A stretch of 64,000 nucleotides of DNA from assembly GCA_900142905.1 (NCBI GenBank), contig FSRV01000002.1:3224001-3288000 (forward strand). Direction: 5' to 3'. Within the stretch, counting starts at the first letter, position 1; each line of letters opens with the position of its first letter. Below the pieces are notes generated by a model. That model had not been told where the DNA came from and made no database searches. It saw nothing but the letters and a program-made list of their open reading frames with translations. The position numbers and the translations under genes are program-made. Shown in pieces: positions 2,978-20,094 of this stretch. The stretch comes from Burkholderia sp. GAS332. Lineage in GTDB: Bacteria; Pseudomonadota; Gammaproteobacteria; Burkholderiales; Burkholderiaceae.

Positions 2978-5215
2978 TTAAGCCTGAGTCGCCGACAACG
3001 CCGCATTCAGCGTCTTGCTCGGGCGCATCACGGCGTCCAGCTTGTCGCTGTCGGGCATGTAGTACCCACCAATGTCCACCGGCTGGCCTTGCACGGCCGA
3101 AAACTCAGCCACGATGGCCTCCTCGTTCTCAGTCAGTTGCTTCGCCAACGGCGCAAAATGCGCGGCAAGCTCGGCGTCGTCGGTTTGCGCAGCCAGTCCC
3201 TGGGCCCAGTACATGGCGAGATAAAACTGACTGCCGCGATTGTCCAGTTGTCCTGTCTTGGGCGACGGGTTCTTGTTGTATTCCAGCAGCTTGCCCGTGG
3301 CGGCATCCAGCGTCTTTGCCAGTATTTTGGCCTTGGCATTGCCGGTCTTGATGCCCAGGTCTTCCAGCGACACCGCCAGGGCCAGGAATTCACCCAGAGA
3401 ATCCCAGCGCAGGTGGTTCTCTTCCACCAGTTGCTTGACGTGCTTGGGCGCCGAGCCGCCTGCCCCGGTTTCGTACATGCCGCCGCCGGCCATCAGCGGC
3501 ACGATGGAGAGCATCTTGGCGCTGGTACCCAGCTCCATAATGGGGAACAGATCGGTCAGGTAGTCGCGCAGGATATTGCCCGTGACCGAGATGGTGTCCA
3601 GCCCGCGGATGACGCGCTCCAGCGTGTAACGCATGGCTCGCACCTGCGACATGATCTGAATGTCCAAACCGGTCGTGTCGTGGTCCTTGAGGTAGGTCTC
3701 GACCTTCTTGATCACCTCGGCCTCGTGGGGGCGGTACGGGTCCAGCCAGAAGATGGCCGGCATGCCGGAGTTGCGGGCGCGGGTGACCGCCAGTTTGACC
3801 CAGTCGCGGATCGGCGCGTCCTTGACCTGGCACATGCGCCAGATGTCACCCTCTTCGACGTTCTGCACGAGCAGCACTTCGCCTGTATCGATATCGACGA
3901 TGCGGGCTTCGCCTGCCTCTGGCACTTCAAAAGTCTTGTCGTGCGAGCCGTATTCCTCGGCCTGCTGGGCCATCAGCCCGACGTTGGGGACCGTGCCCAT
4001 CGTGACCGGATCGAAGTTGCCGTTGGTTTTGCAGAAGTTGATGATCTCCTGGTAGATGCGGGCGAACGTACTCTCCGGGATCACCGCTTTGGTGTCCTTC
4101 GGACGACCGTCGGCGCCCCACATCTTGCCGCCGATGCGGATCATGGCCGGCATCGAGGCGTCCACGATCACGTCGTTGGGTGCATGCAGGTTGGAGATAC
4201 CCTTGGCCGAGTCCACCATCGCCAGTTCGGGGCGATGCTCGTGGCAGGCGTGCAAATCGCGGATGATTTCTTCGCGCTTCGAGCTGGGCAGGCTTTCCAG
4301 CTTGTCGTACAGGTTGACGAGGCCGTTGTTGACGTTCACACCCAGTTCGTCGAACAGCTTGCCGTGCTTCTCGAAGGCTTCCTTGTAGAAAATCTTCACC
4401 GCGTGGCCAAAGACGATGGGGTGCGAGACCTTCATCATCGTGGCCTTGACGTGTAGCGACAGCATCACGCCGGTCTTGCGGGCGTCTTCCATCTGCTCTT
4501 CGTAGAAGTCGCACAGCGCATTCTTGCTCATGAACATGCTGTCGATGATCTCGCCGGCCAGCAGCGACACCTTGGGCTTGAGCACAATGGCCTTACCGCT
4601 TTGGGTCAGCAGTTCCATCTTCACGTTGCGGGCGTGGTCCACCGTCATGGACTTTTCGCCATGGTAGAAGTCGCCGTGCTTCATGTGGGCCACGTGAGTG
4701 CGCGACGCCATACTCCACTCGCCCATGCTGTGAGGGTGCTTGCGAGCGTAATTCTTCACGGCGGCGGGTGCGCGGCGGTCCGAGTTGCCCTCGCGCAGCA
4801 CGGGATTGACGGCACTGCCCAGACACCTGGAGTAACGCTGGCGGATGGCCTTCTCGGCTTCGGTCTTCGGTTCCTCAGGGAAATCCGGCACCTTGTAGCC
4901 CTTCCCCTGCAGCTCCTTGATCGCACCGACCAACTGATGCACTGAGGCGCTAATGTTAGGCAGTTTGATGATGTTGGTATCGGGCAGCAAGGTCAGACGA
5001 CCGAGTTCGGCCAGGTTGTCGGGCACCCGTTGCGCCTCAGTCAGAAATTCCGGAAATTCGCCCAGGATGCGGCCGGCCACTGAGATGTCGCTCGCGGTGA
5101 CCTGGATGCCGGCCGCCGCGGTGAATGTGCGGATGATGGGCAGGAAGGCACTCGTTGCCAGCAGCGGGGCCTCGTCGGTCAGGGTGTAGATGATGGTAGG
5201 TTGCTGGGTAGCCAT
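2978..5215 (-). CDS. icd: Isocitrate dehydrogenase [NADP+], monomeric type
   Basis: Oxidative decarboxylation of isocitrate to 2-oxoglutarate with NADP in the TCA cycle. The protein has 745 residues, the usual size of the monomeric (IDH-II) family of about 740. Recognisable family segments are the N-terminal [14 protein letters not shown], the [11 protein letters not shown] block near residue 85, [33 protein letters not shown], and the C-terminal [12 protein letters not shown]. It is unrelated in sequence to the dimeric Icd. It is monocistronic, with a terminator hairpin just past its stop. Confidence 0.96.
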
Positions 5216-5403: not shown

Positions 5404-5736
5404 TCAATGACTGATCATCCACGGCCTCGTGCCGGGAAACGTTCGCGTGCTGCCGGCATTGCCGGCTTTCGCGGACTTCGCCGCACCGCAGCCACAACCC
5501 GGCCCATGTCGATGTCCATAAGCCTTCGAGCTCACCGGGGCATGCGCGCTGCGTTCGTTGGTCGAGTGCGCCGCGCGCTGCGCTTGCGGCATCAGTGCCA
5601 GCATGGCGCCGCTCGTGACGACCCGCGTCGTTTGCGTGCCGCACTGCGGGCAAAGGTGGGGCAGGTTGCGATCGGCAATACTGCGCATTGCATCGAAGCG
5701 GCCGCACGCGTCGCATTCGAATTGATAGATTGGCAT
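5404..5736 (-). CDS. fmdB: FmdB-family zinc-ribbon protein
   Basis: A 110-residue protein whose first 45 residues are the FmdB zinc ribbon: MPIYQFECDACGRF followed by a second CPQCG pair, so four cysteines can bind zinc. The rest is low-complexity and ends with a short CGCG motif. FmdB was named as a putative regulator of formamidase in Methylophilus. It is encoded 83 bases after the fmdA stop in the same direction, so it is probably the last gene of an amiS-fmdA-fmdB operon. The ATG at 5736 has GGAGAA eight bases upstream and begins the conserved MPIYQF. The ATG 14 codons earlier is less likely. Confidence 0.87.
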   Translation of the reverse strand: MPIYQFECDACGRFDAMRSIADRNLPHLCPQCGTQTTRVVTSGAMLALMPQAQRAAHSTNERSAHAPVSSKAYGHRHGPGCGCGAAKSAKAGNAGSTRTFPGTRPWMISH

Positions 5737-5819
5737 CGTCGCTGTTCTCCATGAGTTTGAGGCTGGCGAAGGCCCCATACTTCAGGCCTTCGCACAGCAC
5801 GGATCGATCGCGCGCCGCT

Positions 5820-7052
5820 TCAGTTCCGGTCGAGCGACAAGGGGAGGTCCACGCCGCCCTGGACATGGCGAATCGGGCCGTCGGCGTTGGGGCGAATGTC
5901 GAAGTCGAAGATCTGGGTCGGGAGCCACAGCGTCGCACAAGCGTTCGGGATATCGACGACACCGCTGATATGCCCCTGAACCGGCGCGGTGCCGAGAATC
6001 GAATAGGCCTGTGCGCGTGAGTAACCGAACTTGGTCAGATAGTCGATGGCGTTCAGACACGCCTGCCGGTATGCGACATGGACGTCGAGGTAGTGTTGCT
6101 TGCCCGCTTCGTCAACGGAAATGCCTTCGAAGATCAGGTAGTCGTCGTAACGCGGTGTGATCGGGCTGGGCTTGAAGATCGGGTTCTTGACGCCGTACTT
6201 GGCGATGCCGCCCTTGATTAAGCTGACCCTCATGTGAACCCATCCCGCCATCTCGATCGCACCGCAGAACGTGATTTCGCCGTCGCCCTGGCTGAAGTGG
6301 AGATCGCCGACGGACAGCCCCGCGCCGTCGACGTAAACCGGGAAGTAGATCTTCGAGCCTCGCGACAGATCCTTGATATCGCAGTTGCCGCCGTGCTCGC
6401 GCGGCGGCACGGTGCGTGCGCCTTCCGCCGCGGCCTTCTTGCGTGAATCGCCCGTCAGCTTACCCATGTGAGCGGTCGCTGCGAAGGGCGGATTCGCCAG
6501 CGGCGGCACACGATCCGGCTCAGTCTTGATGAAGTCGATCTCGCGATCGTTCCATGTTTTCAGCAGCTTCGGATCGGGCAGGCAACCAATCAGACCCGGG
6601 TGAATCAGACCGGCGAATTCGACGTTCGGGATGTGGCGAGACTTCGTGAACAAGCCGTGAAAATCCCAAATGGATTTTTGCGCGTGCGGAAAATGTTCGG
6701 TCAGGAAGCCGCCGCCATTCTGCTTCGAAAAGAAGCCGTTGAAACCCCACTGGCTATCCGCCTTCGTGCCGATGTCGAGCAGGTCCACCACCAGCAGGTC
6801 GCCTGGCTCGGCGCCATGCACACCGACGGGACCCGACAGGAAGTGGACGATGGATAGGTCGATGTCGCGTACGTCGTCGGCCGAATCGTTGTTCTTGATG
6901 AAGCCGCCGGTCCAGTCATAGGTCTCCAGAATGAAGTCATCGCCGGGTTTGACCCAGCATGCCATCGGAATGTCCGGGTGCCAGCGATTGTGAACCTGTT
7001 CGTTTTCGTACGCCGACTGCTTCAGGTCGACTTTGATGAGCGTCTCAGCCAT
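5820..7052 (-). CDS. fmdA: Formamidase
   Basis: Hydrolyses formamide to formate and ammonia. The product has 410 residues, the usual FmdA length, and belongs to the FmdA/AmdA acetamidase-formamidase family. Typical segments are MAETLIKVDLKQSA at the start, HNRWHPDIPMACWVKPGD, GPVGVHGAEPGDLLVVDLLDIG, PGLIGCLPDPKLL, ENGGNCDIKDL-like PREHGGNCDIKDLSRGSK and LHFSQGDGEITFCGAIEM. The ATG at 7052 has AAGGAGA upstream. The reading frame stays open some 560 bases further upstream, but that part is not FmdA-like. It follows the AmiS/UreI channel gene and precedes fmdB. Confidence 0.95.
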   Translation of the reverse strand: MAETLIKVDLKQSAYENEQVHNRWHPDIPMACWVKPGDDFILETYDWTGGFIKNNDSADDVRDIDLSIVHFLSGPVGVHGAEPGDLLVVDLLDIGTKADSQWGFNGFFSKQNGGGFLTEHFPHAQKSIWDFHGLFTKSRHIPNVEFAGLIHPGLIGCLPDPKLLKTWNDREIDFIKTEPDRVPPLANPPFAATAHMGKLTGDSRKKAAAEGARTVPPREHGGNCDIKDLSRGSKIYFPVYVDGAGLSVGDLHFSQGDGEITFCGAIEMAGWVHMRVSLIKGGIAKYGVKNPIFKPSPITPRYDDYLIFEGISVDEAGKQHYLDVHVAYRQACLNAIDYLTKFGYSRAQAYSILGTAPVQGHISGVVDIPNACATLWLPTQIFDFDIRPNADGPIRHVQGGVDLPLSLDRN

Positions 7053-7156: not shown

Positions 7157-7669
7157 CTACTTGAGCGTGCCGCTCAATAACAGGTAACCTGGCAGCCAGC
7201 CGGTGAGGATCCCCGTAATCACGGTGACCGTGCCCGTCAATTTCACAATGGGGCGCTGCATGGCCAGCAAAACGAAGAACAGCAGCCACAGGAAAGCCCA
7301 GCCGAACCAGCACAGCGCAAACCAGATGCCCCACATCGTTGAGGCGTGCAGCAGTGCATCGATAGCGACGGGGACGGCGGTGATGGCGACGAAGAGACTG
7401 AACCAGCCCAGGCCTCGCCCGTCGGCGCCGTTGTAGCGGTTGATGGCCACCCAGAAATAGGTGAACGTGAAGAGCAGCGTGAGCGCCGCGGCCTTGATTG
7501 ACGCGAGGTCGGCGCCGGTCCCGAACGCCAGGTGTAGTGAGACGAGCAGCGTGATGCCGCCGGAGAACACGTTGATCACCCAGATCTCGCGATCGCCAAT
7601 TCGCCCGAGGAGCCACAGGCCGTTCAGGAACAACACGGCACCGACGTAAAGCAGACTCAGACCCAGCAT
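7157..7669 (-). CDS. AmiS/UreI-family amide or urea channel
   Basis: A 170-residue integral membrane protein with six predicted hydrophobic segments, starting MLGLSLLYVGAVLFLNGLWLLG. The sequence WVINVFSGGITLLVSLHLAFG and the late WFGWAFLWLLFFVLLAM are typical of the AmiS/UreI family of proton-gated or passive amide channels. The ATG at 7669 has GGAGGT just upstream. It lies about 100 bases before fmdA on the same strand, so the likely job is uptake of formamide or short aliphatic amides for the formamidase. Confidence 0.9.
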   Translation of the reverse strand: MLGLSLLYVGAVLFLNGLWLLGRIGDREIWVINVFSGGITLLVSLHLAFGTGADLASIKAAALTLLFTFTYFWVAINRYNGADGRGLGWFSLFVAITAVPVAIDALLHASTMWGIWFALCWFGWAFLWLLFFVLLAMQRPIVKLTGTVTVITGILTGWLPGYLLLSGTLK

Positions 7670-7952
7670 GGTGACCTCCATGGCTTCCACGCGCCGCCGT
7701 GCCGACAGGTCACATGCTGTGCCTGAGTACACCGCGTGTCCCGGTGACGTGGGGCGTCCGCTGGCAAGCTTCGAGATCGCCAGACGGCGCCGGGACAGGA
7801 AGCATCATAGGCAGATGAGAATTCACCCGAATCCCCCACCGCGATGATTCTCTTCTCACTTTGAAAGAGGAAGCAGATTCACCCAATTGGGTGAGGCGCC
7901 GTGTCGGCTACCGTGATAGCGTGGTTATGCGCGGGCGTGGCGGGAGCGAATC

Positions 7953-9104
7953 TCAGGAGGCAAGGCAGATTCGCCCGTGCAGGTGCACGAGTTCCATTTG
8001 GCCGTGGGTATCGGTTTTCAGGAAGATCTGCTTGAGATGACTACGCGCCGTGTTTTCGGATACGTGCAATTCGCGCGCTACGCTGGCAATCGAATGCCCT
8101 GTGACGATGAGCGCGCTCACGCGGGCTTGCGCCGGACTCAGGCCGAACTGGCGTGCGAACGAGCAATCGACGTGATCGTCCTCCGGGCGCGTATTGAGTG
8201 CGCTAACGATGGCGAGACCGCGAACTTCACCAAGCTCGGCGCAAAATGCCGCGCCAGCCGGACGTATCGACACGACCATCGGTTGAACGCCACCTGGCGC
8301 GGACAACGACAGGACTTTCGCCGCACCAGCGTGATCGTTTGCATTGGGGTGGGTGGCGCTGGCAATGGCTTGCTGGAATACGCGATCGTCGGCGGCCGCC
8401 GCGGCGGCAATGCAGCCCCCGTCGATGCGCAAGCCGGCCCCGCGCTCACAGATGCGCTGCGCACCACGATTGCCGAAGACCATTCTTGCATTGGCGTCGA
8501 CCAGCATGGCCGCGTGGGCATGCGCGTCGACGATGCTTTTGAGCGCGGTGTTCAGGTCGGCGGCTTCCCAACGCCGCCAGCGATTCTCGACCGCGAGCGC
8601 AAGGTGGGACAGCAGCGAGCCGAACGCGGTTTTCTCGCGCGGCCCGAAGCGGGGTTCGTCGGGGCCGCGATGCAGATCGACGTAGTAGACGAGTTCTCCG
8701 CGCCGCGCAACAACGCCGCACAGGCGGTGATACAGGCCATGCGGCAGCAGGAGGCCGTGATAGAAATCGGTCTTGACGAGATCTCTGTTGCTAAGCAGTT
8801 CCTCGCCGGCCATGACGCGGCCAGGCCGGTAAGCATCGCTCGACAGGAACCACGGATTGCGCGAGGCATAATCCGACAAGGCTGCGCACAACGCAGGATC
8901 GCGCGGCGCGGCATACAACGCGGCGCCTTGCCGGCTGACGAAATCGTGTTGGGCGAGGGCGGCCCAGCGAACGTGAAAACGCTCCCGAATCTGCGCGAAT
9001 ACCGCATGCCAGGCGTCTTCCGAATCGCCGGCTGCGTGGACACGGTAGACAAGGTCGTCGCTTGCGAAGGGGGCAAAGGCGCTGGCGGATAGCCGCGTCG
9101 TCAT
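7953..9104 (-). CDS. LuxR-family transcriptional regulator
   Basis: A 383-residue regulator. The C-terminal 65 residues form a LuxR helix-turn-helix: FGLSPAQARVSALIVTGHSIASVARELHVSENTARSHLKQIF read in pieces. The N-terminal region has no receiver aspartate pattern and looks like a ligand-sensing domain. It lies upstream of and in the same direction as the amiS-fmdA-fmdB genes with a 283-base gap, so it is the best candidate for their regulator. The ATG at 9104 is preceded by AGGACAG. Confidence 0.87.
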   Translation of the reverse strand: MTTRLSASAFAPFASDDLVYRVHAAGDSEDAWHAVFAQIRERFHVRWAALAQHDFVSRQGAALYAAPRDPALCAALSDYASRNPWFLSSDAYRPGRVMAGEELLSNRDLVKTDFYHGLLLPHGLYHRLCGVVARRGELVYYVDLHRGPDEPRFGPREKTAFGSLLSHLALAVENRWRRWEAADLNTALKSIVDAHAHAAMLVDANARMVFGNRGAQRICERGAGLRIDGGCIAAAAAADDRVFQQAIASATHPNANDHAGAAKVLSLSAPGGVQPMVVSIRPAGAAFCAELGEVRGLAIVSALNTRPEDDHVDCSFARQFGLSPAQARVSALIVTGHSIASVARELHVSENTARSHLKQIFLKTDTHGQMELVHLHGRICLAS

Positions 9105-9382: not shown

Positions 9383-12130
9383 ATGCGAATCAAACGCGAC
9401 TATCAATCCTGGGTGGCCAACGAAACACTGGAGGATTATGCGTTGCGCTACGCAGCGCGTTCCTACCGGAGATGGTCGCCCTTTGCACTCGCCAACACGG
9501 CGCTGGGCGGCATCTCGTTCCTCGCGCTTGAGGCAATCGGCGCCAGCATCACACTAAGCTTCGGCTTCCACAACGCGTTTCCGGCCATTCTTCTGGTGTG
9601 CGCCCTGATCTTTCTGGTCAGCTTGCCGATTGCGTATTACTCGAGCGAAGCCAATGTCGACATCGACCTGCTCACGCGCGGCGCCGGCTTCGGCTACCTG
9701 GGTTCCACCATTACGTCGCTGATTTACGCGTCGTTCACGTTCATTTTTTTCGCGCTTGAATCCGCGATCCTGGCGCAGGCGCTCGAACTGGCCACTGGCA
9801 TCAACATCGTGGTCGGCTATTTGCTGTCATCGCTCCTGATCATTCCGCTGGTGTTTTTTGGTGTCACGTTGATCAACAAACTGCAGATGTGGACGCAACC
9901 GCTTTGGATGGTCCTGCTGCTCATGCCTTTTGTCTTCATCCTGTATAAGGAGCCTGGTGTGCTCAACCGCTGGGCTGCGTTTCCGGGGCTGGGTACCGGT
10001 AGCGAGCCGGGCGCAGGGCATGGAATCAACCTGCTGCTGTTCGGCACCGCCGCCGGCGTGCTCTTTTCGCTGATGGGGCAGATCGGCGAACAGGTCGACT
10101 ATCTACGCTTCCTGCCCGAACGGACGCCGCATAACCGATGGGCGTGGTGGAGCGCCATGCTGCTTGCCGGGCCAGGATGGATCGTGGTCGGCGGACTCAA
10201 ACTGCTGGCCGGCAGCCTGCTTGCGGTACTCGCCTTGCAAGACGGCGTTTCCGTAGGCGACGCGGTGGTCCCGGTGCGCATGTACGTGACGGCCTATGAG
10301 CACGTTTTCGACAACCCTACGATTGCGCTCGCCGTCGCGACCGTCTTCGTCGTCATATCGCAGGTCAAGATTAACGTCACGAATGCGTACGCGGGTTCGC
10401 TCGCCTGGTCCAATGTCTTTGCACGTTTGACGCACTATCACCCGGGACGTGTTGTGTGGTTGGTTTTCAACGTGCTGATTGCCCTCTTGCTCACGCTGCT
10501 CGGCATTTTCAAAACGCTCGAGACGGTCCTCGGGGTCTACTCGAACCTCGTCATTGCATGGCTCGGCGCGCTTGTCGCGGACCTGGTGGTGCTGAAGCCG
10601 CTGGGTATCAGCCCGCGCAAGATCGAGTTCAAGCGCGCACATCTGTACCAGATCAACCCGGTTGGTTGCGGCGCGATGCTGATCGCGTCGGTGGTGTCGA
10701 CCTGTGCGTTTGCGGGTCTGTTCGGCGACTATGCACGCGCGTATGCGGCGTTCATCGCGCTCTTGCTGGCGTTTGTCAGCGCGATCGTGATCGCCTATGC
10801 AACCGGCGGTCGCTATTACATCGCGCGTGCCGATCTGCAATACGGCGATGTGCGCCGTGACGAACTGGTTCGCTGCTGCATCTGCGAGCGCGACTACGAA
10901 GCCGCGGATATGGCCTATTGCCCTTTCAACCAAGGGCCGATCTGTTCGCTGTGCTGCGGCCTCGATAACCATTGCCGCGACTGCTGCAAACAGCCGGAAG
11001 CGGTGACCGCGCCGGTGCCCGGTAACGTGTTGCCGGGGCCCGCGACATTGGCGCCGGATTTCGGCCGCCGTATCGGGCGTTTCTTCGGCCTGTTCGTGAT
11101 TGCGTCGACGGCGACAGGCGCGGTGTTTCTGCTGTCGTATCGACTGATCGAGATGTCGGATGCCGCGACACGGGCGCAACTCGCCAGCGTGCTTCTGCAC
11201 ACCTACGCGGCGACCTTGCCGCTGCTCGCCTTCGGCGTCTCCTGGATCGTACTGTCGCAGGAAAGCCGCGAACTGGCGCAGGGTGACCTGATCCAGTCTT
11301 TGCACAACCTCGAGGAAACCCGCAAGGATCTGGTGGAGTCGGAAAAGATGGCGTCGCTGGGCGGCCTGGTCGCGGGCGTCGCCCACGAAATCAATACGCC
11401 GGTCGGCATTGTGGTCAGCGCGGCATCCTATCTGCGCGACCGCACCGAGGCGACCAGCGGCAAGCTGGCGCGTCAGGAGCTCACCGCGGACGAACTGGCG
11501 CACTACATGCGCGATGCCGCGCAGTCGGCGCGGCTGCTGCTGTCGAACGCTGACCGCGCTGCGCGGCTCGTGCAAAGCTTCAAGCAGGTGGCGGTCGACC
11601 AAGCGAGCGAAACACGACGTCAGTTCGATCTGAGCGACTATCTCCGCGAAACCGTCCTCAGTCTCGAACCGAAGCTTAAGGAGGCGCACGTGTCGCTGCG
11701 CGTCGACTGTCCGCCCGGCATCCGCATGGACACGTATCCAGGACCGCTTGCACAGGTGCTGACCAACCTCGTCGTCAATTCGCTGGTGCATGCGTTTGCG
11801 CCAGGCGCTGCCGGCCAGATCGTCATCTCGGCACGCAAGGCGGCAGATGACGACGTGCTGATCGAACATCGGGACGACGGCTGCGGTATCCCCGACGCAT
11901 TGCATGAGAAGGTCTTTGAACCGTTCTTCACCACGCGGCGCGGCTCGGGTGGCAGCGGCCTCGGCTTGCACCTTGCCTATGCCATCGTTACCCGTACGCT
12001 GAACGGCAGTTTGTCTGTGCGCAACGGGGTTCCGTCGGGCGCGGTGTTCGTCATGTGCCTGCCACGAGTCGTCGCGGCGCATAGCGGCCCGTCCAACGTG
12101 ATTCAGATCATTCCGGGGAGAGCACGATGA
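9383..12130 (+). CDS. NCS1-type permease fused to a sensor histidine kinase
   Basis: A 915-residue chimera. Residues 1 to about 490 resemble purine/cytosine permeases of the NCS1 family with about 12 membrane segments (MRIKRDYQSWVANETLEDYALRY, then ALGGISFLALEAIGASITL). Residues 498-535 hold ten cysteines in 38 residues (CCIC, YC, IC, LCC, HC, DCC), probably metal-binding. Two further membrane segments (about 565-625) precede the kinase. The phosphoacceptor is H668 in GVAHEINTPVG. The ATP-binding domain shows LTNLVVNSLVHAF, DDGCGIPD and GGSGLGLHLAY. The last four bases overlap the start of the response regulator gene. It probably senses or transports a nucleobase-like ligand. Transport activity and ligand are inference. 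Confidence 0.9.
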   Translation: MRIKRDYQSWVANETLEDYALRYAARSYRRWSPFALANTALGGISFLALEAIGASITLSFGFHNAFPAILLVCALIFLVSLPIAYYSSEANVDIDLLTRGAGFGYLGSTITSLIYASFTFIFFALESAILAQALELATGINIVVGYLLSSLLIIPLVFFGVTLINKLQMWTQPLWMVLLLMPFVFILYKEPGVLNRWAAFPGLGTGSEPGAGHGINLLLFGTAAGVLFSLMGQIGEQVDYLRFLPERTPHNRWAWWSAMLLAGPGWIVVGGLKLLAGSLLAVLALQDGVSVGDAVVPVRMYVTAYEHVFDNPTIALAVATVFVVISQVKINVTNAYAGSLAWSNVFARLTHYHPGRVVWLVFNVLIALLLTLLGIFKTLETVLGVYSNLVIAWLGALVADLVVLKPLGISPRKIEFKRAHLYQINPVGCGAMLIASVVSTCAFAGLFGDYARAYAAFIALLLAFVSAIVIAYATGGRYYIARADLQYGDVRRDELVRCCICERDYEAADMAYCPFNQGPICSLCCGLDNHCRDCCKQPEAVTAPVPGNVLPGPATLAPDFGRRIGRFFGLFVIASTATGAVFLLSYRLIEMSDAATRAQLASVLLHTYAATLPLLAFGVSWIVLSQESRELAQGDLIQSLHNLEETRKDLVESEKMASLGGLVAGVAHEINTPVGIVVSAASYLRDRTEATSGKLARQELTADELAHYMRDAAQSARLLLSNADRAARLVQSFKQVAVDQASETRRQFDLSDYLRETVLSLEPKLKEAHVSLRVDCPPGIRMDTYPGPLAQVLTNLVVNSLVHAFAPGAAGQIVISARKAADDDVLIEHRDDGCGIPDALHEKVFEPFFTTRRGSGGSGLGLHLAYAIVTRTLNGSLSVRNGVPSGAVFVMCLPRVVAAHSGPSNVIQIIPGRAR

Positions 12131-13401
12131 ATACGCCCTCGTGGCTGCGCCACGGCGTGACAACGGATGCCGGTCAACACGCGAGCATGCCGGCCGAATC
12201 GGGCTGGACGGTGTTGCTCGTCGACGACGATCCCGAGATTCACGAGGTCACGCGAATGGTGCTGGCCGACGCCACCTTCGCGAACCGACCCATCGAACTG
12301 GCCAGCGCATTCTCGGCAGCGGAGGCGAAGGCCTACTTGGCAACCCATCCGGACACCGCGCTGATTCTGCTCGACGTGGTCATGGAAGCGGATCATGCCG
12401 GGCTCGAACTCGTGCGCCATACCCGCGAAATCATCCGGAACCGGGACGTACAAATCGTGCTGCGCACAGGCCAGCCCGGCATGGCGCCCGAGCGCGACGT
12501 CATCGTGCAGTACGACATCAATGGATACTTCCTGAAGACCGAACTGACGGCGCAAAAGCTGACATCGATCGTGGTCGCGGGATTGCGTGCGTATCAGTAC
12601 ATCAAGGCGCTCCAGCCGGGTCACGCATCGCAGGCAAGCTCGTCGACGCGCAGTCTGGTGGAGCCGAAGGAGCTGGAGCGGCGCGCCCGGATCGCAGCGG
12701 ATCTCGCTGCCGCGGCCCAGAACGGGCTGGTCGGTTTGCAGGCATTGCCGCAAGTGGAACTCGCGTCCGGCGCGGTCGTTGGCGTCGAGATACAGCCGGC
12801 ATGGACAACGCGCGAAGGTGCGCTACGGCCGGTGGATATTGTCGCGCTAACCGACGACGCGGCACTGCATCTGTCGCTCGACACGCTGTTGCTGCGTCGC
12901 GCGTGCGGGCTCGCGTGCGACTGGCGCGATAGCAAAACAGACGCGCCACGCGTCTCCGTTCCGTTGCTGTCGACGCGCCTTGACGATGTCGAATTGACGG
13001 CGCTAGTCAAGCGATGTCTTGACGACGCCGGCTTGAATGGCACCGTTCTGGATTTGCAGTTGAGCGGTGCGCTCCTGGGCAAGACGCGCGCGGCGGCTCG
13101 CGCATTGCAGGCAGAAGGCGTGTCGATTACGCTGGTCGACTTCGGCCCTGAGTTGATCTCGTTGTCGGGTCTGCATCGCCTGGGACCCGACCGGATCAAG
13201 ATCCATCCCACCTTCGTGCGCGATGTGACTCACGAGCCCGAGCGGGCCGCCGTCGCACGCTCGATTGTGGCGCTCGCGCACACGCTCGGGATGAGCGCGA
13301 TTGCCGATGGCATCGCCAGCGACGACGATCTTCAGTTCTTCCGCTGGGAAGGCTGCGACTTCGGCCAGGGTGACGCACTCGCCGCCGCGTGGCCTTTGTG
13401 A
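12127..13401 (+). CDS. Response regulator with degenerate EAL-like output domain
   Basis: A 424-residue partner of the preceding kinase; the two genes overlap by ATGA. The receiver domain covers about residues 27-150 (VLLVDDDPEIHEVTRMVLAD, phosphoacceptor D83 in LILLDVVME, then a RTGQPG loop). The C-terminal 240 residues follow the EAL fold (QALPQVELASGAVVGVEIQPAW, then ITLVDFGPELISLSGLHRLGPDRIKI, then GMSAIADGIAS), but the signature EAL is EIQ and other catalytic acids appear changed. It is therefore probably not an active c-di-GMP phosphodiesterase, and may bind c-di-GMP or a protein partner. Confidence 0.87.
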   Translation: MNTPSWLRHGVTTDAGQHASMPAESGWTVLLVDDDPEIHEVTRMVLADATFANRPIELASAFSAAEAKAYLATHPDTALILLDVVMEADHAGLELVRHTREIIRNRDVQIVLRTGQPGMAPERDVIVQYDINGYFLKTELTAQKLTSIVVAGLRAYQYIKALQPGHASQASSSTRSLVEPKELERRARIAADLAAAAQNGLVGLQALPQVELASGAVVGVEIQPAWTTREGALRPVDIVALTDDAALHLSLDTLLLRRACGLACDWRDSKTDAPRVSVPLLSTRLDDVELTALVKRCLDDAGLNGTVLDLQLSGALLGKTRAAARALQAEGVSITLVDFGPELISLSGLHRLGPDRIKIHPTFVRDVTHEPERAAVARSIVALAHTLGMSAIADGIASDDDLQFFRWEGCDFGQGDALAAAWPL

Positions 13402-13431: not shown

Positions 13432-13890
13432 TTAGACCGTGCCGCCTGACGAAGCGGCGCGACGATGCGCGACGAAGGCTTCAACATACTGGATTGCCTG
13501 CTCGCACTGGTCGAGTGACAGGTTGTGGATGGACGCCGGCACGGGCTCGAAGCCGAGTTCGCCCGAGACCCATCGGATGGCTTTCGCGCGGGCTTCGAAC
13601 GGATTGACGCGATCGCGCCTGATCTTGCCCGCGACCAGCGGCTCGAGCGTGTCGTGCAGACGGCTCTTCGCGTCGCGCAGCGCGCCGTCGGCGAGACGTC
13701 CCAGCGGCACATTCCGTGTACTACGCGCGTGGATGCCGATCCACGCCTGACACGCTGTGCAGATCCATACTGGTCCGTGGTCCTCGCGGTAGGGATACGG
13801 CGCCTCGCCGGATTTCACGAGCGCGGCGTGAGTACCGCAGTAATCGCACAGGGGCTGGGGTAATGCCTTGATCGGCCGACCGACACGCAC
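13432..13890 (-). CDS. DUF3268-like zinc-finger-containing protein
   Basis: A 152-residue protein with two cysteine pairs, LCDYCG near residue 14 and WICTACQAWIG near residue 43, followed by a helical region. This pattern matches the zinc-finger-containing DUF3268 family, often found in phage and Burkholderia genomes. The start is a GTG at 13890 with AAGGAG six bases upstream. The gene is convergent with the response regulator gene and divergent from the AraC gene. Function unknown. Confidence 0.7.
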   Translation of the reverse strand: MRVGRPIKALPQPLCDYCGTHAALVKSGEAPYPYREDHGPVWICTACQAWIGIHARSTRNVPLGRLADGALRDAKSRLHDTLEPLVAGKIRRDRVNPFEARAKAIRWVSGELGFEPVPASIHNLSLDQCEQAIQYVEAFVAHRRAASSGGTV

Positions 13891-14289
13891 CGGATACTCC
13901 TTCTCTCTGAAGCCAGTTCACATTATCCGTCATCGGCGGTTACGGCTGCCAGCCGCGACCCGTCATGGGCCACCGACAATTCTGACGTCAGGTTCCGCCT
14001 CTCCAGGGCGCGTCACTAAAACAAAGAGTCGGACGATTTTTCCATCGGAAAAGGAAAAAACGAAATTCAATTTCAACGGCGACGGTAATCCCGTTTTGTC
14101 GAAATCGCCGCCACTATCCGAATTTTGCCGTTCCGCCGACCGGATCTATCCTTTAATTGCAGAGTCTGTGACAAGTTCCTGCGCGAACCTTATGATCCGC
14201 ATAGAGCCTTGCGCGCACCTGTTGAGCTAGCGGGCAGCATCCCTGACGGTGCGGGTGCCTCCGGACGTTTTAGACACAGTGGAGCAAGC
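13891..14289. other. Intergenic region before the AraC regulator gene
   Basis: About 400 bases with an AT-rich patch near 14020-14130, unlike the GC-rich genes around it. The promoters of the DUF3268 gene (leftward) and of the AraC gene (rightward) should lie here. I see no gene and no strong palindrome. Confidence 0.4.
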
Positions 14290-15306
14290 ATGGCTTTGTC
14301 CCCCAAGACCGAAGTACTTGATGCGCTGCACCAGAACTGTGTGTTCAGGTCCGACAAGCGCGCGGAGGCGCACGAATACGTCACCCGGGAATTGGCGGAT
14401 CACGTGCTGCGCTGGAAACAGGGCGCACCGGATGCGGCGCTATACAAGGGGGAATTGAATCAACTGAAGATATATGAACTACGATACGGCGCCGAAGTGG
14501 AGGTCACGCCGCGCCCGTTCGATGGCTTCACCCTGCTGCACACCTCACTGTCCGGCTCCGCGGAATTCGAGTGCGACGGGCACGTCATGAGCGTGTACGA
14601 AGGCCGCACGGCAATACTCGCGCCCAAACAGCACGCCCGGCTGCGCTGGATGCCTGGCACACAGCAGTTGATCGTCCGCATTCCCGATTCGCTCATTCAG
14701 CAGGTTTCCGGGCAAGTCGAGGACAAGGCCGTCAGCCTCTCGCCGGGTCAGCTTCTGCCGCGCCATCTCGACATGCAATGGACGCTGATGGTGCAATCGT
14801 TGCTTAACATTTTGTCGATGTCCGGCGACCCTGGGATACGGGCGGAATGGCGCGATCACTTCGAGCGTAACGTGGCGCTCTTCGTTTTCGCCCATCAACC
14901 TGCGCCCTCCACCTCACCTGTGGCCCTCTGGGCCGCCGACTTCGTCGCCACCTCGAGCGATTCCAGACCACACAACACCGGTATCCGGCCCATGGACGCC
15001 ATGCTCGAATATATCGAGTCACGCCTTTGTGCGCCGATATCACTGGAAGATCTGGCACGGGTGGCCGGCGTCAGTTTTCGTACCCTCAACGTCATGTGCC
15101 ATCGGTACCATGGGGTGACCCCCATGGAATTGCTTCGCAATATACGTCTCGATGCCGTTCGGGCGCGCTTGCTAACCGACCTCAACGCGAGCGTCACGGA
15201 CACCGCGCTGACGTTCGACTTCGGGCATCTTGGCCGCTTCTCCGCGTACTATTTCGCGCGCTTCAATGAGTTGCCGAGCGAAACCCAAAGAAAGCGACAA
15301 CGCTAA
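14290..15306 (+). CDS. antR: AraC-family activator, probable regulator of anthranilate dioxygenase
   Basis: A 338-residue regulator with an N-terminal cupin-like AraC_binding domain (FDGFTLLHTSLSGSAEFECDG, then RTAILAPKQHARLRWMP) and a C-terminal double helix-turn-helix (LEDLARVAGVSFRTLNVMCHRYHGVTPMELL in two parts, then FDFGHLGRFSAYYFARFNELPSET). This is the XylS/AntR/FeaR layout. The ATG at 14290 follows GGAG. It is convergent with the dioxygenase operon, its stop being eight bases from the end of the small-subunit gene. AntR-type activators usually respond to anthranilate. The symbol is inferred from context. Confidence 0.78.
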   Translation: MALSPKTEVLDALHQNCVFRSDKRAEAHEYVTRELADHVLRWKQGAPDAALYKGELNQLKIYELRYGAEVEVTPRPFDGFTLLHTSLSGSAEFECDGHVMSVYEGRTAILAPKQHARLRWMPGTQQLIVRIPDSLIQQVSGQVEDKAVSLSPGQLLPRHLDMQWTLMVQSLLNILSMSGDPGIRAEWRDHFERNVALFVFAHQPAPSTSPVALWAADFVATSSDSRPHNTGIRPMDAMLEYIESRLCAPISLEDLARVAGVSFRTLNVMCHRYHGVTPMELLRNIRLDAVRARLLTDLNASVTDTALTFDFGHLGRFSAYYFARFNELPSETQRKRQR

Positions 15307-15314
15307 CACGCGTT

Positions 15315-15806
15315 CTAAACGTGGTAGAAGTCGAGCACGGAATCGATGGTGTCGTTAAGCAGGACGACATGCTTCTTGAGGATCACCCAGCTGAAGCCGA
15401 CCGGTTTCAGCAGATACGTTGCATCCCCGTAGAAATACGCCGACTGACCGAATCGATGGTAGAAGGTGACCCATTTGCACCTCGCCTCCAACTGGGAGTC
15501 GGACACCTGCTGGATCACTACGTTACTGATCTGGTGCAACGTGCGCGGCAACGGTGTGGACGCCGCCGACTTGCCGGTCCCGAGGCGAAACACACGATCT
15601 TCCAGACCGGCGCGGTCCGCGTAATACATCAGCGACATGCTGCGTTTCGGGTCGGTGGTGTACACATGTTCGGAGTCCCATTGTGGAATATGGAACTCTG
15701 AGTTCTCGTCGAACAGTTCGAGGTAATCGACCCATTGCCGCCTGTCGCACAACTCCGACTTGCGATACAGGAACTGTTCCACGCTACGCTGTAAATCGGC
15801 CATCAT
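15315..15806 (-). CDS. antB: Anthranilate 1,2-dioxygenase small subunit
   Basis: A 163-residue beta subunit of a ring-hydroxylating dioxygenase with a cone-shaped NTF2 fold. Family segments are LQRSVEQFLYRKSELCDRRQWVDYLELFDENSEFHIPQWDSEHVYTTDPKRSMSLMYYADRAGLEDRVFRL in order, and the late VILKKHVVLLNDTIDSVLDFYHV. The ATG overlaps the stop of antA by four bases, so the two are translationally coupled and form the alpha/beta terminal oxygenase. It converts anthranilate to catechol with release of CO2 and ammonia. A benzoate dioxygenase BenB is the main alternative. Confidence 0.88.
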   Translation of the reverse strand: MMADLQRSVEQFLYRKSELCDRRQWVDYLELFDENSEFHIPQWDSEHVYTTDPKRSMSLMYYADRAGLEDRVFRLGTGKSAASTPLPRTLHQISNVVIQQVSDSQLEARCKWVTFYHRFGQSAYFYGDATYLLKPVGFSWVILKKHVVLLNDTIDSVLDFYHV

Positions 15807-17197
15807 TGCTTCGCTCCTTCGGCGTTGCGGATTTTTGCTTCAAGCCCTTTGAGCAGGGCGTCTCGCCACTCGCTGTGCTGATTGACATAGAGCCCTTCAT
15901 GGGTCAGCTCGGCGCCGGTGAGCACGGGTGCGATGCCTAGCGTTTCCGCATTCGGCGTGCTGCCTGTAATCCACTTGTCGCAGCCCCGGGAGATGTCGTT
16001 CCACTTTTCCATCCGGCCTTGAAAGCCGCGTTGGGCTTCGCGAAACTCAGTCAGATCGTCAGGCGTCCCCATGCCGGAGACGTTGAAGAAATCCTCGAAC
16101 TGGCGGATGCGGTTTTCCCGATCCGCGTCGGACTCACCCTTGACGCCAATGCACTGGCTGAGGATCTCGGTCTTGTTCCAGGCGACGGGTCGGATAATCC
16201 GCAACTGCGAGCTGATCTGATCCATGAAGAACAAGCTTGGATAGACGTTCAGGTTCCGCAGCCGGTTCATCATCCACGCCGCCTTTTCCTGGCCATACTC
16301 TTTGATCAGCCGGGGCATGATGGTGGCGTAACCGGGGCGTACCTCCGGATTCGGCATTTCGCTGAACAGCACACTGTGGCCGTTGGGGAACGAGAACCAG
16401 CCGTCATCGGTCGCGTCATCGCCGGCGCCGAGCTTGCGGTAGTCGAGCGTGCTGTTGACGTCCGAACCCTTCTTCGCGTTGATCTCCATGCGATGCGTGG
16501 CCGTGGCGACGTAGTTGTAGTGCACGGTGCTCACGTGATAGCCATCGAGGCCGTTTTCGTTCTGCAGCTTCCAGTTGCCGGCATAGGTGTAGTGGCCCTT
16601 GCCCGGCAGCACCTCGAGCTCGCCCGTCGGCGACTGCGCGACCATCAGGTCGAGAAAGACCTTGGCGTCGCCCAGGTTCTCCTCCAGTGACGTCGTGCCT
16701 TCGGTGTCGAGACTCACGAAGACAAAGCCCTTGTAGCTCGCGACACGCGCCTTTTTCAGGTCCCGGCGCGAAAGGTCGAATCCCTCGGGGTACTCGGACG
16801 GTGCTTTCACCTTCAGCAGCTTGCCGTCGGAACGAAACGTCCACGCATGAAAGGAGCACGCGAAGGTGGACTGATGTCCTTTGCTCAGCCGGGTCAGCGT
16901 TGCGCCTCGGTGTGCGCACGCGTTGACGAGCGCATTCAAGTCCCCGTTGGCGCCGCGCGTGATGATCAGCGGCTGGCGGCCGGCCTGCATGGTGATGTAG
17001 TCATGCGGCTTGCTGATTTCGCTCTCGTGACAGGCGTAGATCCAGCGCTTCTCGAAGATCATCTCCATTTCGAGTTCGAACAGCTCGGGTTCGGTAAACA
17101 TGGCCCGGGCGACGCGATAGGTATTGTCGTCGGGACGGAAGTCCAGGCAACCTGTGACGAACTCTCGCCACTCGTTCTCTGTTCGTGTGATAGACAT
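15803..17197 (-). CDS. antA: Anthranilate 1,2-dioxygenase large subunit (Rieske oxygenase)
   Basis: A 464-residue alpha subunit. The Rieske 2Fe-2S centre is CAHRGATLTRLSKGHQSTFACSFH, read as CxH, 17 residues, CxxH. The mononuclear iron site is in NENGLDGYHVSTVHYNY. The stretches WIYACHESEI and VATATHRMEINAKKG resemble AntA more than BenA, so anthranilate is preferred over benzoate, from memory of the families. The ATG at 17197 has AAAGGAG six bases upstream. It follows the hemerythrin gene by 11 bases and is coupled to antB. Confidence 0.87.
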   Translation of the reverse strand: MSITRTENEWREFVTGCLDFRPDDNTYRVARAMFTEPELFELEMEMIFEKRWIYACHESEISKPHDYITMQAGRQPLIITRGANGDLNALVNACAHRGATLTRLSKGHQSTFACSFHAWTFRSDGKLLKVKAPSEYPEGFDLSRRDLKKARVASYKGFVFVSLDTEGTTSLEENLGDAKVFLDLMVAQSPTGELEVLPGKGHYTYAGNWKLQNENGLDGYHVSTVHYNYVATATHRMEINAKKGSDVNSTLDYRKLGAGDDATDDGWFSFPNGHSVLFSEMPNPEVRPGYATIMPRLIKEYGQEKAAWMMNRLRNLNVYPSLFFMDQISSQLRIIRPVAWNKTEILSQCIGVKGESDADRENRIRQFEDFFNVSGMGTPDDLTEFREAQRGFQGRMEKWNDISRGCDKWITGSTPNAETLGIAPVLTGAELTHEGLYVNQHSEWRDALLKGLEAKIRNAEGAKQ

Positions 17198-17208
17198 GAC
17201 GTCTCCTT

Positions 17209-17649
17209 TCAAGTGAGTTGCATCTCGCGGCGCAGCACGACGGGCGCGCCGCCAGCGACTTTCTTTACGACCCAGGCCGCAAGCGCGGAATCCATGTAAT
17301 CCGTGTGCCCCGGAAACCAGTCCGCCAGCGCCCGCGCCAGCTCACGGGCGACCTCGACATCGCCCGCGTTTACCAGCGTGTGCACCTCGCGCACTGACTC
17401 GAGTACCTTTTGATGCTCCTCGATGTGACACTCCGCCGCCGGAAACCCAAACGCCTTCATCAAATGCTCTTCATGCGCGAAATGCGCCTCGAGGTGGCGA
17501 ACAAATGCATGCAGCGTTGCCGGGACCTGTCGATCGTCCGCACGGAGGATCGCGTTCACCCGCTCAACGAACTCTTGATGACTGTCGTCCATCGCCTGAT
17601 GTCCAATCAGGTAGCCTTCGTTCCAACTGAGATCAGCGGCGATATCCAT
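17209..17649 (-). CDS. Bacteriohemerythrin inside the dioxygenase operon
   Basis: A 146-residue single-domain hemerythrin. The di-iron ligands are visible in order: HQAMDDSHQEF, HFAHEEHLM, HIEEHQKVLE and HTDYMDS, which supply the expected five histidines plus a glutamate and an aspartate. It binds O2 reversibly at a di-iron centre. The ATG at 17649 has AGGAG close upstream. It lies between the reductase gene antC (35 bases away) and antA (11 bases away), all in one direction. I infer that it stores or delivers O2 to the oxygenase, or protects it. This placement is not standard in ant or ben operons. Confidence 0.92.
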   Translation of the reverse strand: MDIAADLSWNEGYLIGHQAMDDSHQEFVERVNAILRADDRQVPATLHAFVRHLEAHFAHEEHLMKAFGFPAAECHIEEHQKVLESVREVHTLVNAGDVEVARELARALADWFPGHTDYMDSALAAWVVKKVAGGAPVVLRREMQLT

Positions 17650-17684
17650 CTGCACTCCTGCTCTAATCCGGTTAATCACGCCCG

Positions 17685-18704
17685 CTAGCTGAGGCTGGCG
17701 GCAAATTTTTCGAAATGGAACGACGCCGATTTCACGTTCACGTCGCGTAGATGCTGAGCAACCGCCTCGACCATGGGCGGAGGGCCGCACAGATAGATAT
17801 CGACGTCGCCGTCGTGGAGGTGCGCGGGTTCGATATGATGCGTGACGTACCCTTTCTTCGGCCTCTCGCTGTTTGCATCCACGACGCAGACTTCGAAAGT
17901 GAAGTTCGGGATGAGACCCGTGAAAGCGTCGAGCTTGTCGATCTCCACGACATCCCGATCGGTATTGACGCCATAGATCAGGTGAATCGGGAATGGACTG
18001 CCGCCGGCCGTGACGATCTTGTCGAGCATGGCGAGAAATGGCGCGAGACCCGTGCCGCCCGCCAGCATGAGGACCGGGCGCACCAACGGCCGCAGATAGA
18101 AGCTGCCGAAAGGTCCGTTCATGACCAACTCGCCCCCCGGCGCCGCCCGCTCCTTGAGAAAGCTGCTCATCAGGCCGCCCGGGACGTTGCGGATCAGGAA
18201 CGCCACGCTATCGCTGCGTGCTGTCATCGAACTGAACGAGTAGGCGCGTTGGCGTTGCTCCCCGCCCGGCACCTGCAGGTTGGCGTATTGGCCCGGGAGG
18301 AACACCAGGTCCTTGAGCCCATCGCCTTCGAGCACGAGCGAAAACGTGCTGTCGGAGAGGCGGCGCACGTCCTTGATCCGGGTAACGTAGCTCTCCTGCG
18401 GGGTGCTGCACGCGGCGGAGCTGGTCGGCACGAGGACGACGCAATCGGACTTCGGCCGCATCTGGCACGCCAGCGCGTAGCCCTCGTCCGCTTCACTGCT
18501 GCTGAGCGCATCGTCGATATAGTCGCCGAGCGAGTAACTGCCGGATTCGACACGGCACTTGCAGGTGGCGCAAGCGCCCTCCCGGCAGTCCATTGGAATG
18601 TTGATGCCCTGACGATAGGCGGCGTCCACCACGGATTCCATACTGCCGCAGTTGACGAAGCGGGTGACGCCGTCCTCGAAATTGAGCGCTATGCTAAAGC
18701 TCAT
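17685..18704 (-). CDS. antC: Anthranilate 1,2-dioxygenase reductase (ferredoxin-FAD/NAD)
   Basis: A 339-residue electron-transfer component. The N-terminal plant-type 2Fe-2S ferredoxin domain has CREGACATCKC plus a later cysteine in LACQM. Then come the FAD domain (RAYSFSS) and the NAD domain (MLAGGTGLAPFLAML, YLCGPPPMVEAV). It passes electrons from NADH to the AntAB oxygenase. The ATG at 18704 has GGAG eight bases before it; the ATG two codons upstream overlaps that site. It is the first gene of the operon, unlike the usual A-B-C order. Confidence 0.9.
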   Translation of the reverse strand: MSFSIALNFEDGVTRFVNCGSMESVVDAAYRQGINIPMDCREGACATCKCRVESGSYSLGDYIDDALSSSEADEGYALACQMRPKSDCVVLVPTSSAACSTPQESYVTRIKDVRRLSDSTFSLVLEGDGLKDLVFLPGQYANLQVPGGEQRQRAYSFSSMTARSDSVAFLIRNVPGGLMSSFLKERAAPGGELVMNGPFGSFYLRPLVRPVLMLAGGTGLAPFLAMLDKIVTAGGSPFPIHLIYGVNTDRDVVEIDKLDAFTGLIPNFTFEVCVVDANSERPKKGYVTHHIEPAHLHDGDVDIYLCGPPPMVEAVAQHLRDVNVKSASFHFEKFAASLS

Positions 18705-19113
18705 TGCCATGTCTCCAGTCTCATCTACGTTTATCGCGGCGTCCAATCGTCGGTGCGCTTCGCCAGAAATCGGCTGGACCAACGGCCCAGGTAGCGCATC
18801 CACCGAATCACGCAGCGGTTGATGAAAGTCTAGGGAGACAGGGGTAACCGGGCTATCCGGAATCTGCTGTGGAACCCGGTTGTTCTGTCCGTTTCTTGCA
18901 GGCCGGCTTGCGCAAATGACGAACCGAATCACGCAAACATGTGGCCTATACCAAAAGGATGGCGTGGGTCGGTGTGCGGCTATAGATGTCGTGAATGAGG
19001 CTATTTGAAACGGAAATTTAACAGCGAATCGCGGCCGCCCTATGCTGGTCTCAACACGCGGCGCCCGCAAGTGGCGCCCGCCCACGTTGGACATCAACTT
19101 ATCTGGAGGCTTT
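18705..19113. other. Divergent promoter region of the ant operon and the decarboxylase gene
   Basis: About 410 bases between two divergent starts with no gene. It contains the paired direct repeat listed at 18903-18937, and two promoters must lie here. A short reading frame runs through from the antC side but has no family character. Confidence 0.5.
18903..18937 (-). promoter_or_regulatory. Direct repeats with 21-base period, candidate AraC/XylS-type activator site
   Basis: On the minus strand TTTGCGTGATTCGG (18937-18924) is followed by TTTGCGCAAGCCGG (18916-18903). Both have the form TTTGCG-N5-CGG and their starts are exactly 21 bases apart, two helical turns. XylS-type activators bind direct half sites with this period. 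The position, 200 bases before antC, suggests an AntR site with a long leader or a promoter some way downstream of it. It could also act on the decarboxylase gene. Confidence 0.6.
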
Positions 19114-20094
19114 ATGCAGAACAAGATTGCGCTCGAAGAGCACTTCGCATCGCCCGACACGATTGGCGATTCTGAACATTACTTCACCCCTGACATCTGG
19201 CCGGAACGGCGCCGGCAACTGCTCGATGTTCAGGAGGAGCGTATCGAGCGTATGGACGCCTGCGGAATCGGCTACACGATCCTGTCGTTGAACGCGCCCG
19301 CCATTCAGGCGATTACCGACACCAAACGGGCAATCGATGTCGCGCGACGCGCGAACGATCTGCTGGCCGAGCAAGTGGCGCGCCGTCCGGACCGCTTCGG
19401 GGCATTTGCTGCGCTGCCGATGCAGGATCCGGACGCGGCCACCCGTGAGTTGCAGCGCACGGTGTCCGAACTCGGCTTCAAGGGGGCGCTTGTCAATGGC
19501 TTTTCGCAGGTCGGTAGCGCTGACAACGCAACCTATTGCGATCTGCCACAGTACTGGCCGTTCTGGGGTGAGGTTGCACGGCTAGGCGTGCCGTTCTACC
19601 TGCATCCGCGCAATCCGCTGCCGAGCCAGCAGCTTGCGCTGGAGGGACACCCGTGGCTGATGGGTCCGGCATGGGCGTTCTCTGCGGAAACCGGTGTACA
19701 CGCGTTACGCCTTATCGGCAGCGGTCTTTTTGACGCCTATCCCACGCTGCAGGTGATTCTCGGCCATCTGGGCGAGCTCGTGCAGAACAACATCTGGCGT
19801 ACGTCCCATTGGGCCTCCGCGGACGCAAAGAACCCGATGGGCGTCAAGGCGAAACGACCGTTCATCGATTACTTCCGGCAGAACTTCCACGTGACGACGA
19901 GCGGCAACTTCCGCACGATCGCCATGCGTAATGCGATGGACGAAATCGGCAGCGACCGTGTGCTGTTTTCGACCGATTACCCGTTCGAAACGATGGAAGA
20001 GGCGAGTACCTGGTTCGATGCCGCGGAGATCGGCGACAACGACCGGGAAAAGATTGGCCGCGACAACGCGAAGCGGCTGTTCCGGTTGTCTTGA
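19114..20094 (+). CDS. Amidohydrolase-2 family decarboxylase, gamma-resorcylate decarboxylase-like
   Basis: A 326-residue TIM-barrel enzyme closely resembling gamma-resorcylate (2,6-dihydroxybenzoate) and 2,3-dihydroxybenzoate decarboxylases. The metal ligands E8, H10 (ALEEH), H164 (FYLHPRNPLP) and D288 (FSTDYPFE) are all present, and the stretches SLNAPAIQAI and LVNGFSQ match the family. It catalyses non-oxidative, cofactor-free decarboxylation of an ortho-hydroxy aromatic acid. 3,6-dihydroxypicolinate decarboxylases of picolinate pathways belong to the same family, so a pyridine substrate is possible. The ATG at 19114 has GGAGG at good distance. It is divergent from the ant operon. Confidence 0.85.
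   Translation: MQNKIALEEHFASPDTIGDSEHYFTPDIWPERRRQLLDVQEERIERMDACGIGYTILSLNAPAIQAITDTKRAIDVARRANDLLAEQVARRPDRFGAFAALPMQDPDAATRELQRTVSELGFKGALVNGFSQVGSADNATYCDLPQYWPFWGEVARLGVPFYLHPRNPLPSQQLALEGHPWLMGPAWAFSAETGVHALRLIGSGLFDAYPTLQVILGHLGELVQNNIWRTSHWASADAKNPMGVKAKRPFIDYFRQNFHVTTSGNFRTIAMRNAMDEIGSDRVLFSTDYPFETMEEASTWFDAAEIGDNDREKIGRDNAKRLFRLS

Follow-up and report, generated by a model that had tools for sequence, protein, structure and literature searches.

In this work we examined a stretch of 64,000 nucleotides from Burkholderia sp. GAS332 (contig FSRV01000002.1, positions 3,224,001 to 3,288,000; hereafter the window) and, within it, a gene on the plus strand (9383-12130) whose 915-residue product fuses a permease-like domain, a cysteine module, two extra helices and a histidine kinase. 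We propose that this protein is probably a transporter-like receptor kinase, in which a domain related to the NCS1 family senses urea or a short-chain amide, a ligand suggested by genomic context, and controls the use of such compounds. The proposal that urea or simple amides are sensed follows from the observation that relatives of the kinase usually lie beside genes for using urea and formamide-type amides.

The earlier note on this DNA, made from the letters and their open reading frames, had described one continuous frame carrying an NCS1 nucleobase-type permease, ten cysteines, two further membrane helices and a full kinase core, with a partner gene overlapping by ATGA. This layout stands: the 915-residue frame and the 424-residue partner frame (12127-13401) are both uninterrupted, the overlap is present in the sequence, and the kinase core is on the same chain as the rest. 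On the plus strand, the permease domain spans residues 15-477 (9425-10813), the cysteine module residues 498-535 (10874-10987), the extra helices residues 559-635 (11057-11287), the HisKA dimerization and phosphoacceptor region residues 660-721 (11360-11545, with the kinase histidine, H668, at 11384-11386) and the HATPase_c ATP-binding domain residues 788-895 (11744-12067). Pfam recognized HATPase_c (PF02518, E 4.7e-22), HisKA below its cut-off (PF00512, 20.9 bits against 26.9) and nothing in residues 1-636. Among 8000 scored homologue candidates, the best 120, which include the window's own protein (P0002), align over 97-100% of the query length with identities of 60-100%; all 8000 passed E 0.001, some perhaps through the kinase part only. 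The same domain order is kept in relatives across many genera. Many homologues bear the Joint Genome Institute (JGI) label "signal transduction histidine kinase/purine-cytosine permease-like protein," and the architecture is therefore already known to automatic annotation; what is new here is its family-wide genomic context.

Genomic context of the kinase and its relatives

We compared 81 loci, the window and 80 that were fetched, in which neighboring genes were called by tblastn with reference proteins at identity limits set by hand; loci supplying a reference match by construction. FmdA was found in 52 loci, UrtA in 52, UrtB in 49, FmdB in 42, AmiE in 16 and AmiS in 12, and NCBIfam confirmed representatives of UrtA, UrtB, UrtC, UrtD, formamidase and aliphatic amidase. 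FmdA or AmiE was present in 53 loci and UrtA or UrtB in 53, one group or the other being found in 65, while urease genes were seen in four (L090, L092, L093 and L103). The recurring annotated families were amide, urea and urease genes together with response regulators, with no metal or redox family among them. Fifteen loci lack amide and urea-transport genes: two urease loci, two truncated contigs from the window's clade, and eleven others belonging to cyanobacteria (4), Sulfurimonas (4), the myxobacteria Polyangium and Sorangium (2) and Azonexus (1), three of the eleven being on contigs shorter than 15 kb. The neighborless loci of the cyanobacteria, Sulfurimonas and Polyangium/Sorangium are L038, L043, L046, L058, L067, L083, L094, L101, L039 and L065; the ligand of these relatives may differ, or the corresponding genes may sit elsewhere.

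A census of 398 genomes across the phylum, the window's own included, was based on a cut-off of E <= 1e-60 for the permease-cysteine-helix unit, referred to below as the cassette. Of these genomes, 52 carry the cassette (57 genes) and 40 carry FmdA (43 genes), with 39 genomes having both, 13 the kinase only, one FmdA only and 345 neither; FmdA is thus present in 39 of 52 kinase genomes versus 1 of 346 genomes without the kinase. Among 59 close relatives, again including the window's genome, ten have both genes, one the kinase only, one FmdA only and 47 neither. Fisher tests gave p-values of 1.4e-41 for the full set and 1.9e-9 for the close relatives, values that overstate independence because the genomes share ancestry, and the weight of the census rests on the number of families and on the distances rather than on these p-values. 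The ten kinase-fmdA pairs of the close relatives are 2.3-6.6 kb apart, and for 39 of all 57 kinase genes the distance to fmdA is 2.3-11.8 kb. For the other 18, the only ones in whose genomes the urease alpha gene was searched, 16 have it 1.0-15.7 kb away; the two misses (G168 and G280) are fragmented assemblies, G168 carrying fmdA on another contig. UrtA is encoded somewhere in 12 of the 13 kinase-only genomes. The window's genome also encodes ten ordinary NCS1 permeases, all of them more than 370 kb from fmdA and the nearest about 377 kb away. The earlier note had proposed a survey of the catabolic genes that adjoin orthologues; FmdA, Urt, AmiE and urease are the ones that recur, and the link to amides drawn from the formamidase operon beside the kinase extends, through both the 81 loci and the census, to the family as a whole.

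The permease domain has an NCS1-type fold and an altered pocket

The NCS1 family of Pfam, PF02133, matched neither the window's protein nor the N-terminal parts of 11 relatives; it has ten matches in the same genome, the kinase fusion not being among them, and no NCS1 family appeared among the best 25 of the 72 NCBIfam families matched by the protein. Since neither database gave an NCS1 match, the relation was checked by profile and by fold. Comparison of the kinase-family profile with NCS1 in hhalign gave 97.0% (E 1e-10 for the single pair, 351 columns). An AlphaFold2 model built from a 66-row alignment reached a predicted local distance difference test (pLDDT) score of 86.1, an earlier model from 11 sequences having been poor (69.7), and a fold search with it returned a LeuT-type fold with NCS1 as the best match and CodB and Mhp1 as the closest structures. 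The domain has an NCS1-type fold and a distant sequence relation to NCS1. The earlier note had regarded a domain search without NCS1 helices in the N-terminal half as evidence against its reading; Pfam did miss them, but the more sensitive profile and fold tests reversed that outcome. An SLC5 identity was also considered and dropped (hhalign 0.14% against the seven SLC5 proteins of the genome). When the 66-row profile was searched against PDB sequences, nothing matched the permease.

Pocket positions were set by aligning sequence motifs with those of CodB and Mhp1 rather than by inspecting a superposition, with some Mhp1 residue roles being those we take that protein to have, and were counted in 121 sequences, the window's included, or, for some finer counts, in the 66-row alignment. 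F122 aligns with the tryptophan of transmembrane helix 3 (TM3), L230 with the TM6 aromatic (CodB Phe204), E126 with Mhp1 Gln121, T333 and V332 with the two sodium-binding threonines of CodB, and K329 with CodB Asn275; the roles of the CodB residues in the substrate and sodium sites are those given in the available portion of PMC9379551. F46, E126, Q233, K329 and N334 are invariant in all 121 sequences. The TM3 position is Phe in 111 of them and the TM6 position Leu in 120, and the aromatic pair that surrounds the substrate in NCS1 proteins is therefore lost on its TM6 side, which fits a small, non-aromatic ligand as far as the alignment can indicate. The genome's ten ordinary NCS1 permeases all have Trp or Phe at the TM3 position, and four of them have an aromatic in the TM6 column, five of the remaining six having an aromatic one residue earlier; the residue at that preceding position in the kinase family is Ser or Ala in 66 of 66 rows. 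At the sodium site, 113 of the 121 sequences have Thr at the T333 position. Sodium coupling may be lost, because the V332 position is Val, Leu, Met or Ile in all 121 and the position of Asn275 always carries lysine (K329). Within the same 121 rows, F122L was seen in 7 of 20 urease-linked versus 1 of 77 amide-linked kinases, and T333M/A in 8 of 20 versus 0 of 77, which makes these two positions possible specificity residues for urea versus amides.

A conserved cysteine module and differing kinase cores

The ten cysteines counted within residues 498-535 are all present (498, 499, 501, 513, 521, 524, 525, 531, 534 and 535), the other cysteines of the protein being at 73, 429, 441, 776, 834 and 892. 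That number is partly incidental, since C534 varies and position 499 is a cysteine in 31 of 66 rows; the conserved set comprises the other eight, all present in 120 of 121 sequences. The single exception (L104:9971-13315) lacks the last two of these and is a natural variant. Within its own genome, the kinase fusion is the only protein in which the module was matched. In the model, a hairpin precedes a CxxC that opens a helix, an order reminiscent of a treble clef. Among PDB sequences, the 66-row profile matched nothing but two RING proteins, both weakly (E 2.8 and 6.8). The predicted hairpin and CxxC are most plausibly read as a structural zinc site. The module is followed in the model by helices at 559-588 and 594-635, the two further membrane helices of the earlier note, which from their sequence are probably transmembrane.

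We then compared the two halves of the protein separately with those of 74 complete relatives, of which 18 are short (<1010 residues) and 56 longer. Over residues 1-636 the median identity to the window's protein is 59.3% for the short and 52.8% for the longer relatives. The kinase halves of the short relatives are 47-77% identical in seven cases, 24-30% in ten and unmatched in one, and those of the longer relatives have a median identity of 23.8%. Because the input half is conserved and the kinase halves differ, the permease-cysteine-helix unit looks like a cassette placed on different kinase cores, a pattern to be expected if it serves as the receptor. It is found in 9 of 35 genomes of the same genus, the window's included, the other eight having the long form at 53-55% identity; a match in G011 (E 4.4e-7, 28% identity) was judged to be an ordinary permease and left out of this count. 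The nearest relatives in the named-genome scan are from Caballeronia (85-86% over residues 1-636), and outside the phylum sampled in the census relatives also occur in cyanobacteria, Sulfurimonas and myxobacteria.

Partner proteins and a proposed signaling route

The co-translated partner (12127-13401, plus strand) is a response regulator with a receiver at residues 29-146, whose Asp83 is read directly at 12373-12375, and an EAL domain at 192-419, both assigned by Pfam. Motif alignment showed that the EAL domain is degenerate, as had been noticed earlier: it lacks five positions common to six EAL domains of the same genome. The Asn of NLS, the second Glu of LELE, the first Asp of DDFG, the Asp of KID and the Glu of AEGVE are changed in all five aligned proteins (of seven found), while the Glu of EAL is retained in four of the five and the Gln of QG in all five. 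Judging by the positions of the EAL motif that we take to be catalytic, the protein is probably not a phosphodiesterase. Its gene co-occurs with a divergent LuxR-type gene in the same seven of the 81 loci, the window's among them.

Other relatives have different partners. A receiver-LuxR response regulator was found in 47 of 81 loci; it tends to accompany the long kinases and offers a direct DNA-binding output. In L036, L037, L040, L041, L042, L044 and L051, which from their genus names are presumably alphaproteobacteria, the neighboring response protein combines a receiver with a histidine kinase, and this suggests a phosphorelay in these loci.

In the route that we envisage for the window, the NCS1-related domain would bind urea or a short-chain amide such as formamide or acetamide, and the resulting domain movement would be relayed to the kinase by the eight-cysteine module, presumed to be rigid and probably loaded with zinc, and by the two extra membrane helices, so that autophosphorylation at H668 would change. 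The phosphoryl group would presumably be transferred to the receiver of the receiver-EAL protein. The EAL domain, probably non-catalytic, may then act by binding, most likely to the neighboring LuxR-type regulator, which would in turn switch on amiS-fmdA-fmdB. Extended to the whole family, this would describe a large receptor-kinase class, as yet without a name, whose dedicated receptor for urea and short amides is a converted NCS1 domain, with the invariant K329 beside the sodium site replacing sodium coupling and an eight-cysteine zinc joint allowing one cassette to drive several kinase cores; we advance this broader scheme tentatively, as somewhat less than an even prospect.

Alternative explanations

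The earlier note had suggested a nucleobase, a hydantoin or an amide as ligand, and of these the amide is favored by the neighbors found throughout the family. A sensor that keeps the usual NCS1 substrate class (nucleobase, hydantoin or allantoin), with the amide genes handling breakdown products, would be consistent with a fold nearest to CodB and Mhp1 and with the formation of urea-like compounds at the end of the pathways for allantoin and hydantoin. It nevertheless seems very improbable to us, since the annotated recurring neighbors are amide, urea and urease genes (enzymes of nucleobase and hydantoin breakdown were not searched systematically) and the TM6 aromatic of the pi-sandwich, a role described in the available portion of PMC9379551, is Leu in 120 of 121 sequences. 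Slightly better placed, yet still unlikely, is the idea that the cysteine module is the primary sensor, of zinc, another metal or redox state, and that the permease merely anchors or modulates it. The near-invariance of the eight cysteines and their position between permease and kinase agree with such a role, but the permease part is itself conserved, with 53-59% median identity and invariant pocket residues, the neighbors point to amides and urea, with no metal or redox family recurring among those annotated, and the predicted hairpin-helix metal site suggests a structural function.

A more serious possibility, though one we would on balance doubt, is a working transceptor, in which uptake of the amide or urea by the domain would itself give rise to the signal during the transport cycle, as has been proposed for CbrA. 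The NCS1-type fold and the Thr kept at one sodium-binding position in 113 of 121 sequences speak for this; the loss of the second Thr in every sequence, the invariant K329 at the Asn275 position, and the dedicated Urt or AmiS uptake genes that usually adjoin the kinase speak against it. As for a frame joined by a sequencing error, full-length relatives share the same frame in many genera and nothing was found in its favor, so that it deserves almost no credence. We therefore retain the urea or short-amide receptor, against which several observations must be set. Eleven of the 81 loci lack the amide and urea-transport genes searched, urease not having been searched in these eleven; in the census of 398 genomes, 4 of the 43 fmdA genes have no kinase gene nearby; and the neighbor type switches often on the tree, with 19 changes of the fmdA label on a quick tree that has long branches. 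In the pocket, F228, beside the lost TM6 aromatic, is Phe in 42 of 66 rows and may stand in for it. Finally, Pfam finds no DNA-binding domain in the receiver-EAL protein, and for this reason its output is a guess.

Other features of the locus

On the minus strand, running away from the kinase pair, lie in order the LuxR-type (GerE) regulator, which is divergent from the kinase (7953-9104; PF00196, E 8.6e-07), a channel gene of the amiS/ureI type (7157-7672; PF02293, E 1.4e-58), the formamidase gene fmdA (5820-7052; NF045496, 777.5 bits against a cut-off of 500) and a gene for an fmdB-type zinc-ribbon protein (5404-5736; PF09723, NF053663, TIGR02605). For the last three genes the given starts are our estimates, the open reading frames extending to 7732, 7616 and 5778, respectively. 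The RPWMISH domain (NCBIfam NF053663) is present in the FmdB proteins of the window (5404-5778, minus) and of L086 (3043-3414, minus), zinc-ribbon proteins that travel with formamidase. Scans for upstream promoters and inverted repeats yielded one weak sigma-70-like site and otherwise nothing decisive.

Immediately downstream of the receiver-EAL gene, Pfam identified a DUF3268 zinc-finger protein (13432-13890, minus). The region 14125-19160 holds an AraC-type, AndR-like regulator (E 1.3e-32, below cut-off), adjoined by genes judged by eye to encode a Rieske-type dioxygenase and a reductase, possibly an aromatic-acid dioxygenase cluster. A 745-residue open reading frame at 2978-5215 (minus) presumably encodes a monomeric isocitrate dehydrogenase, which it appears to resemble.

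Comparison with known systems

Among the matches listed for the open-license literature we found no study of an NCS1-kinase fusion, and the transporter-fused kinases that we met in print are of the SLC5 or Amt type; here another transporter family serves as input. The Amt-fused ammonium sensor kinase, which we take to be Ks-Amt5, has a transporter fold that differs from that of the permease-fused kinase, and we know of no cysteine module in it. It shares with the present protein a nitrogen-compound transporter domain placed on a kinase (PMC5764959, in part). According to the accessible text of a 2010 paper (PMC3098086), the urea-like ABC cluster blr0968-0973 of Bradyrhizobium, which includes FmdA and AmiE, probably carries amides rather than urea; the term "histidine kinase" is absent from that text, which describes no sensor beside the cluster, and a cluster of this kind adjoins long kinases in the Bradyrhizobium loci examined here. 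The review PMC8399564, in the part available to us, cites a thesis (Leeds, 2010) that deals with NCS1 transporters and sensor kinases; passages of PMC12918730, PMC6368324 and PMC5424462 proved to have no bearing on the present kinases. The domain resembles CodB and Mhp1 in its fold, its profile relation, the TM3 aromatic (Phe in 111 of 121) and the Asp-x-x-Arg motif of TM6, and differs from them in its fusion to a kinase, the replacement of the TM6 aromatic by Leu and of one sodium-site Thr, and its invisibility to PF02133.

The permease-fused kinase is common, being present in 52 of 398 genomes of the phylum, yet over 636 residues it is invisible to Pfam, and the ligand class predicted for it is specific and cheaply testable. 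Should the prediction hold, it would explain how a large number of bacteria detect urea and simple amides and activate urt, fmd, ami or ure genes, and it would add a second model for the conversion of a transporter into a receptor. The closest parallel is offered by CbrA, CrbS and RpuS, in which an SLC5 domain is fused through a STAC domain to a kinase, and which, in the available parts of the reports, are tied to histidine (CbrA/B), acetate (CrbS/R) and a pyruvate symporter (RpuS/R) (PMC13022988, PMC9100948, PMC5715377). In these systems, as here, a LeuT-fold transporter domain is joined to a histidine kinase, which controls, or in the present case would control, the use of a small nutrient. 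The comparison with CbrA made in the earlier note holds by analogy only and not as family membership, since the permease is not SLC5 by profile. Unlike the SLC5/STAC kinases, the present protein carries an NCS1-related permease, has a cysteine module and two helices at the place of STAC, and is associated with urea and amides as its nutrient class.

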